From Vreelandella halophila (GTDB lineage: Bacteria > Pseudomonadota > Gammaproteobacteria > Pseudomonadales > Oleiphilaceae): 64,000 bases of DNA. The first letter of the stretch is position 1, and every line of letters begins with the position of its first letter. Location: positions 62,001 to 126,000 of the forward strand of contig NZ_JACHUZ010000011.1 of the NCBI RefSeq assembly GCF_019903425.1, given 5' to 3'. Under the pieces are notes generated by a model. It saw nothing but the letters and a program-made list of their open reading frames with translations, was not told the origin of the DNA and did no database searches. Positions 4,362 to 36,103 of the stretch are shown piece after piece. The position numbers and the translations under genes are program-made.

Positions 4362-4461
4362 TACTTCCAGCCAACCCGATTGAACGCTTTGGTCATTGTG
4401 GCGGCCTCGGCGCATCGCGACACTGAGCGCGACTGAAACAACAATAGCGGAGTTCGCCCCG

Positions 4462-5601
4462 ATGCTTTCACGCCCGATCTACGACAGCGACGTCCACCAG
4501 TTCCGGGACACCGTCGTCCGCTTCCTCCAGAACGAGGCCGTGCCCTACCACGACCAGTGGGAAAAGGATGGCCAGGTCAGCCGCGAGCTCTGGAAAAAAG
4601 GCGCTGAACTGGGCCTGCTGTGCCCGTCGTTGCCGGAAGAGTACGGCGGTGCCGGAGTGGACTTCCGCTACAGTGCCGTGGTCATGGAAGAGGTCAGTCG
4701 GCTCGGGCTCTCGGGCATCGGGTTCTTCCTGCACTCGGACATCGTTGCCCCCTATATCCACCATTACGGCACCGAGGAACAGAAGCAGAAGTACCTGCCG
4801 AAGATGGCCCGGGGCGAGATGATCACCGCCATTGCCATGACCGAGCCCGGCGCCGGCTCCGACCTCCAGGGCATCCGGACCTCCGCCATCTGGGATGGCG
4901 AGCACTACGTGCTCAACGGCTCCAAGACCTTTATTACCAACGGCCAGATGGCAGACCTGGTGATCGTCGTGGCCAAGACCGATCCCAAGGAGGGCGCCAA
5001 GGGCACCAGCCTCTTCCTGGTCGAGGCGGACTGGCCCGGGTTCGACAAGGGCCGCAACCTGGACAAGGTGGGCATGAAGGCCCAGGACACCTCGGAGCTC
5101 TTCTTCCAGGACGTGAAGGTGCCGAAGGAGAACCTTCTGGGCAGCGCGGAAGGGCAGGGCTTCATGCAGCTGATGCAGGAGCTGCCCCAGGAACGCCTGC
5201 TGGTGGGGCTGGTGGCCCTGGCCGCCTGCGAGGGCGCCTTCGAGTGGACCCTGGATTACGTGAAAGAGCGCCAGGCCTTCGGCAAGCCGGTGATCGGCTT
5301 CCAGAACACCCGCTTCAAGCTGGCCGAGCTCAAAGCGGACATCACGGCCGGGCGTACCTTCGTGGACCGCTGCCTGGAGATGCACCTGGAGGGTAAGCTG
5401 GATGTGCCCACCGCCGCCATGCTCAAGCAGTGGACCACCGACCTGCAGTGCCGGGTGATGGACGAATGCCTGCAGCTGTTCGGCGGCTACGGCTACATGA
5501 CCGAGTACCCCATCGCCCGGGCCTGGGCGGATTCCCGCGTGCAGCGCATCTACGCGGGCACCAACGAGATCATGAAGGAGATCGTTGCCCGCTCGCTCTG
5601 A
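4462..5601 (+). CDS. Long-chain-type acyl-CoA dehydrogenase (ACADL-like)
   Basis: FAD enzyme for the first oxidation of acyl-CoA in beta-oxidation. The 379-residue protein has the FAD motif IAMTEPGAGSDLQGI, the helix segment MQELPQERLLVGLVAL, and ends RVQRIYAGTNEIMKEI. As in mammalian LCAD and isovaleryl-CoA dehydrogenase, the catalytic base should be the Glu in QERL (Glu244), because the usual C-terminal Glu position (IYEGT) is IYAGT here. Start ATG 4462 has GGAG at 4449; the frame is open 22 codons further upstream without family similarity. It appears monocistronic and is separate from the dehydrogenase pair at 33.6-36.1 kb. Confidence 0.9.
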   Translation: MLSRPIYDSDVHQFRDTVVRFLQNEAVPYHDQWEKDGQVSRELWKKGAELGLLCPSLPEEYGGAGVDFRYSAVVMEEVSRLGLSGIGFFLHSDIVAPYIHHYGTEEQKQKYLPKMARGEMITAIAMTEPGAGSDLQGIRTSAIWDGEHYVLNGSKTFITNGQMADLVIVVAKTDPKEGAKGTSLFLVEADWPGFDKGRNLDKVGMKAQDTSELFFQDVKVPKENLLGSAEGQGFMQLMQELPQERLLVGLVALAACEGAFEWTLDYVKERQAFGKPVIGFQNTRFKLAELKADITAGRTFVDRCLEMHLEGKLDVPTAAMLKQWTTDLQCRVMDECLQLFGGYGYMTEYPIARAWADSRVQRIYAGTNEIMKEIVARSL

Positions 5602-33371: not shown

Positions 33372-33596
33372 TCAGTGGCTGAAGCTCCTTTGCTCCGGAA
33401 TCATGCCAGCCCAGGCTTCCCGGTCAATGCTGAAGCCGTACTGTCGCTCATAATTGACGACGACGCCACATATTGCAGGGGGGGTGACCGGGGCAGCAGG
33501 CGGCAGCGGCATCCGGGTCAATGGCAGCGCCGGCAGTTGCGGCATAATCGGATTGTCAGCCACAGTCCGAGGAGGCCGCCATGGCGCGCGATGCAA
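33372..33596 (-). CDS. Doubtful small open reading frame
   Basis: A 74-codon frame ends 14 bases before the beta-barrel gene. Its N-terminal half is Pro-rich and low in complexity; the second half (GVVVNYERQYGFSIDREAWA) looks more protein-like. It overlaps the start and ribosome site of the acyl-CoA dehydrogenase on the other strand and has no good ribosome site itself. If not coding, the 33358-33580 stretch is an untranslated divergent region. Confidence 0.2.
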   Translation of the reverse strand: MHRAPWRPPRTVADNPIMPQLPALPLTRMPLPPAAPVTPPAICGVVVNYERQYGFSIDREAWAGMIPEQRSFSH

Positions 33597-34888
33597 TGGG
33601 ATACGCCCTGAGCGCCCTCAACCACCTTGCCGGTTCCGGGGTGCTTGATCACCTGGGAATGAGGCGTACTGCCGAGAACATCAGCTATTACCTGAGCCGT
33701 TCCAGCTTCAGTGCCATCAGCACCAGCGCCCGCCAGTTCCGCAACCTCAACCCCCTCAGGCGCCCTCAGAGGCTGCATGCCCCTGGCAGGACCCAGGATC
33801 TTTTTGATCTGAACATCACCGATGAACAGCGCATGATCCGCGAGAGTGTCCAGGACTTTGCGCGTGAGATTCTGCGGGAGACAGCTGAAAGCGCGGATGC
33901 CGGGCGCGCCACGGCCTCTGGCACCCTCGAGCAGGCCGCAGAGCTCGGGCTGACTCTGTTCTCCGTGCCCGAGGCTCTGGGCGGCGCGGCAACGGAACGT
34001 TCGCCCGTGACCTCCATGCTGCTGGCGGAGGATCTGGCCTACGGTGACATGGGGCAGGCCGCCGCGATCCTGGCGCCCATGTCCGTGGCCAATGCCCTGA
34101 CGCAGTGGGGCAATGCCCATCAGCAGGGGACCTACCTGGTGGCGTTTGCCGGGGACAATCCACCCCAGGCCAGCATCGCGGTGGCCGAGCCCACACCGCT
34201 GTTCGATCCGCTGCAGCCGGCATGCACCGCGACCCGCCAGGGCGATCACTATGTTCTCAACGGCACCAAGACCCTGGTTCCCCTCGCCGCGCAGGCGGAA
34301 CTCTTTCTGGTGGCGGCCATGACCGGGGATGGCCCCGGCGTCTTCATTGTGGAGGGTGGCAGCGCGGGATTACGCGTCGGAGAGGACCGGCCCATGGGCA
34401 TCCGTGCCAGTGGCCAGGGGCGGGTGCATCTGGACGGCGTAAAGGTTCCCGCAGGTAACCGCCTGAGTGCCGGGGACTTCGACTACCGCGCCTTTGTCGA
34501 CCTGGGAACCCTGGCCTGGTGCAGCCTCGCCATCGGAACCTGCCAGGCGGTCCTGGACTACGTCATTCCCTATGCCAACGAACGCACTGCCTTTGGCGAA
34601 CCCATCAGCCACAGGCAGGGGGTTGCTTTCCTGATCTCGGACATGGCCATCGAACTGGACGCCATGCGCATGCTCACATGGCGGGCGGTCTGCCGGGCCG
34701 AGCAGGGCCTTTCCTTCCGGCGCGAGGCGCACCTGGCGCGCACCCTGGTCAAGGACAAGGCCATGGGTATTGGAACCAATGGCGTACAGGTCCTGGGTGG
34801 CCACGGCTACACCCACGAGTACCCGGTGGAGCGCTGGTACCGGGACCTGCGGGCCACTGGTATCGCCTTCGGCGGGCTGCACCTGTAA
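33581..34888 (+). CDS. Acyl-CoA dehydrogenase-like subunit without catalytic glutamate
   Basis: A 435-residue protein of acyl-CoA dehydrogenase fold after a 75-residue N-terminal extension; the ACAD N-domain starts near LNITDEQRMIRESVQDFARE. ATG 33581 has AGGAGG five bases upstream. Key residues are changed: the FAD loop, normally TEPGxGSD, reads VAEPTPLFDP; the C-terminal catalytic position (IYEGT in MCAD) reads IAFGG with Phe430; the alternative Glu of LCAD/IVD is replaced in DLGTLAWC (Gly309). The protein stops soon after, losing the last helix. GGHGYTHEYPVERWYRD confirms the family. Most likely the non-catalytic partner of the next gene. Confidence 0.85.
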   Translation: MARDAMGYALSALNHLAGSGVLDHLGMRRTAENISYYLSRSSFSAISTSARQFRNLNPLRRPQRLHAPGRTQDLFDLNITDEQRMIRESVQDFAREILRETAESADAGRATASGTLEQAAELGLTLFSVPEALGGAATERSPVTSMLLAEDLAYGDMGQAAAILAPMSVANALTQWGNAHQQGTYLVAFAGDNPPQASIAVAEPTPLFDPLQPACTATRQGDHYVLNGTKTLVPLAAQAELFLVAAMTGDGPGVFIVEGGSAGLRVGEDRPMGIRASGQGRVHLDGVKVPAGNRLSAGDFDYRAFVDLGTLAWCSLAIGTCQAVLDYVIPYANERTAFGEPISHRQGVAFLISDMAIELDAMRMLTWRAVCRAEQGLSFRREAHLARTLVKDKAMGIGTNGVQVLGGHGYTHEYPVERWYRDLRATGIAFGGLHL

Positions 34889-34897
34889 GGAGGGGCC

Positions 34898-36103
34898 ATG
34901 AACCTGGAGATACCCAAAAAGTTCCGTTCCCTGATCAACAATGCCCACCAGGTGGCCGTGGGCACCTTCCGGCCCATTTCGCGCTATTACGACCGGCACG
35001 AGCATGAGCGCCCGAAAGAGCTCGATATGCTGGCCTCCATCCTGGATGGGTTCAACGAGGGTGATCCCTCGAATTCCGCCGGGGCCGCCACCACTGGCGC
35101 CAGTGGTGGAGCCGGCTCCGGGGATGTGCGCAATGGCTCGAACATGGCCGTCTGCCTGGGAACCATGGAGCTGTGCTACGGCGACGTGGCGCTGATGCTC
35201 TCGCTGCCGCGCCAGGGCCTGGGCAACGCGGCCATCTCCGCCGTTGCCACGGACGAACAGAAGCAGCGCTTTGAAGGCAAGTGGGCGGCCATGGCCATTA
35301 CCGAACCCGGCTGTGGTTCGGACTCCGGCGCCATCCGCACCACGGCCCGCCGCGAGGGTGATGAGTACGTGCTCAACGGCGAGAAGATCTACGTCACTGC
35401 CGGTGAACGGGCGGACTGCGTGGTGGTCTGGGCAACGCTGGATCCATCCATGGGCAAGGCCGCCATCAAGTCCTTCGTGGTGGAGTGGGGCACGCCGGGA
35501 ATGGAGCTGGCACGGCTGGAGAAAAAACTGGGTATCCGCGCCTCGGACACCGCCGCCATCCACTTCCAGAATTGCCGTGTGCCGGCGGAGAACCTGCTCG
35601 GTACTCCGGAGATCGACACCGCCAAGGGCTTTGCCGGGGCCATGCAGACCTTCGACAACACCCGCCCGCTGGTGGCCGCCATGGCAGTGGGCTGTGGCCG
35701 CGCGGCACTGGAACGCCTGAAGGAACTACTGGCGGATCAGGTGAATCTGGACTACGACCGCCCGGTGGATAATGCGTCCGCTGTCGAGGCCGAGATCTAC
35801 CGCATGGAGGCGGAGTGGGAATCTGCGTACTGGCTGACGGTGCGCGCCGCCTGGATGGCCGACAACCACCAGCCCAATTCGGTCCAGGCCTCCATGTGCA
35901 AGGCCAAGGCCGGACGTGTGGGCAACAGCATCACCCTGCGCTGCGCGGAACTGGCGGGGACCCTGGGTTACAGCGAGGAGGAACTGCTGGAGAAATGGGC
36001 CCGGGATTCCAAGATCCTGGACATCTTCGAAGGCACCCAGCAGATCCAGAACCTGATCATTGCCCGGAGGCTGTTGGGCCTCAGCTCGAGTGAGTTGCGG
36101 TGA
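34898..36103 (+). CDS. Acyl-CoA dehydrogenase, probable catalytic partner
   Basis: A 401-residue dehydrogenase nine bases after the previous one, with AAGGAGG before its ATG. The FAD loop AITEPGCGSDSGAIRTTA is intact and the catalytic base is Glu378 in ILDIFEGTQQIQNLII, as in medium-chain enzymes. A Gly/Ala/Ser-rich loop (AGAATTGASGGAGSGD) at residues about 64-80 and an extended N-terminus (IPKKFRSLINNAHQVAVG) are unusual. The tandem arrangement, with one complete and one defective active site, suggests an alpha2beta2 complex. Acyl substrate unknown. Confidence 0.9.
   Translation: MNLEIPKKFRSLINNAHQVAVGTFRPISRYYDRHEHERPKELDMLASILDGFNEGDPSNSAGAATTGASGGAGSGDVRNGSNMAVCLGTMELCYGDVALMLSLPRQGLGNAAISAVATDEQKQRFEGKWAAMAITEPGCGSDSGAIRTTARREGDEYVLNGEKIYVTAGERADCVVVWATLDPSMGKAAIKSFVVEWGTPGMELARLEKKLGIRASDTAAIHFQNCRVPAENLLGTPEIDTAKGFAGAMQTFDNTRPLVAAMAVGCGRAALERLKELLADQVNLDYDRPVDNASAVEAEIYRMEAEWESAYWLTVRAAWMADNHQPNSVQASMCKAKAGRVGNSITLRCAELAGTLGYSEEELLEKWARDSKILDIFEGTQQIQNLIIARRLLGLSSSELR

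Follow-up and report, generated by a model that had tools for sequence, protein, structure and literature searches.

The window analysed here, 64,000 nucleotides of the Vreelandella halophila genome, carries at positions 33581-36103 on the + strand two tandem genes for acyl-CoA dehydrogenase (ACAD) homologues, which we call A and B and which lie where the initial annotation placed them. The genes share a reading frame across a gap of 9 nt, and each is preceded by a good Shine-Dalgarno sequence, AGGAGG at 33570-33575 for A and TAAGGAGG, overlapping the stop codon of A, for B. Translational coupling of the two genes at this overlap is likely. A promoter-like block (GGTCAATG...CATAATCG, window positions 33516-33551) recurs upstream of A at loci L009-L012, L016, L020 and L022. 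In Alcanivorax loci the promoter-like block carries the palindrome GTCACA-N8-TGTGAC, in this or a closely similar form, which may be an operator. Elsewhere in the window, at 4396-5601, lies a canonical single-gene ACAD with all three ACAD domains present. The features of the locus are as follows.

33516..33548, + strand: promoter-like block preceding A, GGTCAATG ... CATAAT, conserved at other loci, with a pattern-scan match at 33521-33548
33581..34888, + strand: gene A, ACAD homologue of 435 aa (Pfam Acyl-CoA_dh_N/M/1); from its half-site pattern the putative non-catalytic subunit with a beta role of ChsE5/Tcur3481 type, and probable FadE24 counterpart
33581..33802, + strand: residues 1-74 of A, an N-terminal extension modelled as helices of low confidence (pLDDT mostly <65)
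34184..34210, + strand: A residues 202-210, AEPTPLFDP, a ruined TEPGxGSD flavin loop by alignment
34583..34618, + strand: A residues 335-346, RTAFGEPISHRQ, ADP-binding arm preserved, with R335, F338, G339 and Q346 invariant in 41/41 A proteins
34787..34810, + strand: A residues 403-410, ADP-binding arm preserved as QVLGGHGY; Q403, G406, G407 and G409 invariant in 41/41
34868..34870, + strand: A Phe430, aligned at the MCAD Glu376 position
34886..34900, + strand: stop codon of A overlapping the Shine-Dalgarno sequence and start of B, TAAGGAGGGGCCATG
34898..36103, + strand: gene B, ACAD of 401 aa (Pfam Acyl-CoA_dh_M/1); from its half-site pattern the putative catalytic subunit, and probable FadE23 counterpart
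35300..35323, + strand: B residues 135-142, flavin loop preserved as TEPGCGSD, with T, G and S the same in all 35 B proteins
35735..35779, + strand: B residues 280-294, degenerate ADP arm with no R-x-x-F-G and no Gln; R281 and Q292 lost in 35/35
35948..35971, + strand: B residues 351-358, ELAGTLGY, degenerate QxLGGxG arm; Q349 missing from 34 of 35 B proteins and G353 from 33
36029..36031, + strand: B Glu378, the presumed catalytic base; 31 of 35 B proteins have Glu here

Alignment with MCAD and other ACADs places Phe430 of A at the position of MCAD Glu376 and Gly309 at that of the IVD/LCAD-type Glu. Both substitutions had been read from the sequence in the initial annotation, together with the AEPTPLFDP loop and a truncated last helix, and all four are borne out: only 5 residues follow the Glu position in A compared with 23 in B, so that the last helix is missing. 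The features claimed for B likewise hold, as Glu378 aligns with MCAD Glu376 at an offset of only 2 residues in numbering and the TEPGCGSD loop is intact. The overall pattern of the pair is seen again in every homologue examined and is more than chance.

The division between the two proteins becomes clear when the residues that contact FAD are scored separately for the two ends of the cofactor. The contact positions, and their partition into a flavin half (MCAD positions 136, 141, 142, 166, 168, 377 and 378) and an ADP half (281, 284, 285, 292, 349, 352, 353 and 355), are taken from the established MCAD structure. Across a set of 41 non-redundant A proteins, 35 B proteins and 29 other ACADs, the ADP half is complete in 41/41 A proteins (score 1.00) and averages 0.22 in B, where it is lost, while the flavin half is complete in 35/35 B proteins (score 1.00) and averages 0.17 in A, where most of it is gone; both halves are largely retained in the 29 other ACADs (means 0.93 each). 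In ACAD dimers the FAD of one subunit is served by the ADP arm of the other, so A and B have each lost exactly what the partner keeps, and this complementary loss leaves a working flavin/acyl site in one subunit only, with the ADP arm coming from its partner. Within A, in MCAD numbering, T136 is absent from 37 of the 41 homologues and G141 and S142 each from 40. A Glu at the Phe430 position is kept in nine of the 41, actinobacterial A proteins among them; its loss is therefore not a family trait, and the base was not the first thing to go. Judged from these alignments, the defining trait of A is a dead flavin pocket, not a missing Glu.

Since A and B are in frame, reading through the window yields a fused protein in which the two can be folded together. 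AlphaFold2 gave this fusion a mean pLDDT of 82.4 and a pTM of 0.84, and both halves match full ACADs in structure comparison; the pTM is only suggestive of a physical alpha2beta2 assembly with two FADs, as the 4-residue linker may itself force contact between the halves, and the structure-match ranges span both of them (75-739), which makes their rmsd values hard to read. Block-mean pLDDT for A residues 61-80 is 69 and 76 in the presence of B compared with 38 and 60 for A alone. Modelled by itself, A has its best Z score with MCAD and its lowest rmsd among the matches listed, 2.0 Å, with Tcur3481; against a chain of ChsE4-ChsE5 the value is 2.2 Å. The sequences of Tcur3481 and ChsE5 also lack the flavin loop and keep the ADP arm. 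The initial annotation had ascribed N-terminal extensions to both proteins and suggested that these form the interface. A does have one, but B does not, a Gly/Ala-rich stretch replacing part of its N-terminal domain, and about eight A homologues lack the extension as well, so it is not an essential interface.

Taken together, A and B very probably form one heteromeric ACAD, most likely an alpha2beta2 assembly with two FADs whose site is shared between the subunits, the flavin held in B and the ADP end gripped by A. In such an enzyme B, the alpha subunit, would hold the flavin ring and the acyl-CoA, and Glu378 would take the alpha proton as the hydride passes to the shared FAD. A, the beta subunit with the dead flavin pocket, would lend its arm (R335, F338, Q346, Q403 and G406-G407) to the ADP end of the FAD held by B, and electrons would pass to ETF as usual. 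Because each subunit is without half of the FAD site, poor FAD binding and no activity would be expected of either alone. Complementary residue loss, co-occurrence, adjacency, selection and the ACAD fold of both halves were each computed; it is the assembly, stoichiometry and activity that we infer.

The same division of labour is known from steroid-degrading actinobacteria. In ChsE4-ChsE5 and ChsE1-ChsE2 the flavin site, the Glu and the substrate site belong to the alpha subunit, and the ADP part of the FAD site comes from beta (PMC11153573); A-B resembles ChsE4-ChsE5 (FadE26-FadE27), ChsE1-ChsE2 and Tcur3481-Tcur3483 in this respect. As most known heteromeric ACADs act on steroids, the A-B complex could be a dehydrogenase of steroid or polycyclic acyl-CoA like ChsE1-ChsE2, but the remaining evidence makes this improbable. 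Unlike in the steroid enzymes, the non-catalytic gene leads in A-B. In the free tree A and B fall into clades of their own among straight-chain ACADs, apart from the steroid alpha and beta subunits (99/97), and the AU test rejects grouping B with steroid alpha (p-AU 0.031); grouping A with steroid beta (p 0.18) and placing A and B as sisters (p 0.42) are not rejected. The nearest solved relatives of both by sequence are homomeric SCAD, butyryl-CoA dehydrogenase and MCAD, not steroid enzymes. B carries its predicted catalytic Glu where MCAD does; in ChsE4 that place is taken by Gly, and an NHER motif is found at the IVD position. Unlike the ChsE and Tcur enzymes, the pair has no steroid context: IpdE2 gave no match at E <= 1e-40 in the genome of the window, and no steroid genes were seen among the window proteins scanned, in agreement with the earlier observation that the pair lies outside any visible steroid cluster. 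The comparison with ChsE1-ChsE2 made in the initial annotation is thus apt for the architecture but needs correction for the family: the nearest counterpart by gene order is FadE24-FadE23, and in the free tree the pair falls outside the steroid clades. An origin of the A-B pair independent of the steroid enzymes is favoured by the phylogeny.

Tandem ACAD genes are common, and both A and B retain the overall fold, which they share with the MCAD and SCAD homotetramers that are the nearest solved sequences of both subunits. They could therefore be two separate homomeric enzymes that merely share an operon. Those homotetramers carry both halves of the FAD site on one chain, whereas every A lacks nearly all flavin contacts and every B nearly all ADP-arm residues. 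Neither gene occurs without its partner. A check of co-occurrence across genomes, proposed in the initial annotation, finds A and B in the identical 8 of 369 gammaproteobacterial genomes, and 58 nearer relatives are concordant: B is present in every genome that bears A, counting the divergent pair of G412, an apparent exception in which a more divergent B lies directly behind A. B directly follows A on the same strand at all loci where the contig continues, and does so in 30/30 further loci; the two ACAD genes are thus both adjacent and co-occurring. Two independent homomers are accordingly very unlikely, and the half-site loss, co-occurrence and adjacency read from the sequences lend strong support to the proposal that the pair is obligately heteromeric, with one of its subunits non-catalytic. 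At one locus (L129, G010:C22:13218-16853) A is followed by two tandem B copies, A-B-B', where one FAD-sharing A partner apparently serves two catalytic genes.

We give equally little credence to a role for A like that of human ACAD9, in which it would regulate B or aid its assembly and contribute nothing to the FAD site. This would fit a non-catalytic A, and the FadE23-FadE24 complex has been suggested to do something besides dehydrogenation (PMC11980559), but what A conserves is precisely the ADP arm missing from B. That A is a functionless, decaying duplicate of B, to which its roughly twofold faster evolution (dN 0.067 compared with 0.025 for B, both measured against L009) might point, is barely credible given a dN/dS of 0.08-0.20 and ADP-arm residues invariant in 41 A proteins spanning Chloroflexota, Actinomycetota and Pseudomonadota. 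A is under purifying selection, B has a dN/dS of 0.03-0.10, and the distances among A proteins correlate with those among B proteins (r = 0.81). In the tree, the A proteins form one fully supported clade and the B proteins another.

The shared-site heteromer has a likely counterpart in actinobacteria. In Tsukamurella and Rhodococcus the A-B pair lies near hisN, and because the gene order next to hisN matches impC (Rv3137)-pflA-fadE24-fadE23-fadB4 of M. tuberculosis (PMC2834668), the counterpart is most likely FadE24-FadE23 (Rv3139-Rv3140), an assignment made by gene order and not by direct alignment with Rv3139-Rv3140. In the tree, A groups in one clade with the A proteins of Nocardia, Rhodococcus and Tsukamurella, and B in another with their B proteins. 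The actinobacterial pairs at this locus show 47-52% identity to the window pair for A and 58-63% for B, with the half-site pattern in common. They differ in that actinobacterial A keeps the Glu where the window protein has Phe430, and the window lacks the hisN, pflA and fadB4 neighbours. FadE23-FadE24 has been called a complex, with citation of Voskuil 2013 and Wipperman 2013 (PMC11980559). Proteobacteria, too, have steroid ACADs of heteromeric type (PMC8399759), and a heterotetramer has been proposed for a beta-proteobacterial dicarboxylate ACAD pair (PMC12543098); the proteobacterial pairs already described or proposed include Scd1AB, ScdC1C2 and PimCD-like enzymes. With these and the FadE24-FadE23 complex already on record, this kind of enzyme is known, Proteobacteria included. 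PimCD and the dicarboxylate pair resemble A-B in being two adjacent ACAD genes with a proposed heterotetramer outside steroid breakdown, but profile matches of A-B to pimC and pimD are weak and far below the cut-off.

Four divergent pairs depart from the catalytic pattern. In the B proteins of L112, L122, L138 and L134, Gly replaces the catalytic Glu (FGGT, LGGT or YGGT) and the flavin half is complete; these pairs come, in that order, from G381, where it is the second pair, from genus g274 (G374 and G388) and from G412. Their A partners also lack the Glu, and a search for a compensating acidic residue in these B proteins or their A partners found none. We regard it as possible, but rather doubtful, that the split FAD site arose in the FadE24-FadE23 lineage independently of the steroid enzymes, and that a branch of it (the second pair of G381, g274 and G412) later lost the catalytic Glu from both subunits with the shared FAD site still complete, which would point to different chemistry.

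The substrate is probably a fatty or branched acyl-CoA from the recycling of fatty acids or the turnover of storage lipids rather than a steroid, a weak inference to which WS/DGAT genes, FabG4-like and thiolase genes near the pair and the mycobacterial phenotype are weak pointers. In M. abscessus the FadE24 orthologue MAB_3486 is reported to co-localise with lipid inclusions, and triacylglycerol falls by about half when the gene is deleted (PMC11980559). The genome of the window has three WS/DGAT genes, and a FabG4-like reductase is physically linked to the pair in about nine genomes. At L113, L116, L119, L121, L122 and L127, and in G397, G393 and G388, a FabG4-like long reductase lies about 10 kb or less from the pair, and at several of these loci a FadA-like thiolase is also within about 10 kb. 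A WS/DGAT gene lies about 3 kb downstream of the pair at L120 (G384:C84), and in the window's genome (G000:C13:1545345-1552269) a FabG4-like gene is about 5 kb from a WS/DGAT gene. A strict link to wax-ester/TAG synthesis was considered and rejected: of the relatives that have the pair 19/22 carry WS/DGAT, and of those that lack it 25/36, no clear or significant association. The co-occurrence of FabG4-like reductases (19/22 with the pair and 17/36 without) was likewise set aside, being explained by family membership.

The split-site enzyme that has been recognised in mycobacteria as FadE23-FadE24 is thus widespread and strictly paired in marine and halophilic Gammaproteobacteria and beyond, which opens its purification and study to strains that are harmless. 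For the wider ACAD family, the half-site residue pattern offers a simple sequence test for obligate heteromers, and the absence of the catalytic Glu is, as a warning, an unreliable marker of them. With the Glu-less branch, the function of such complexes becomes open to direct test.
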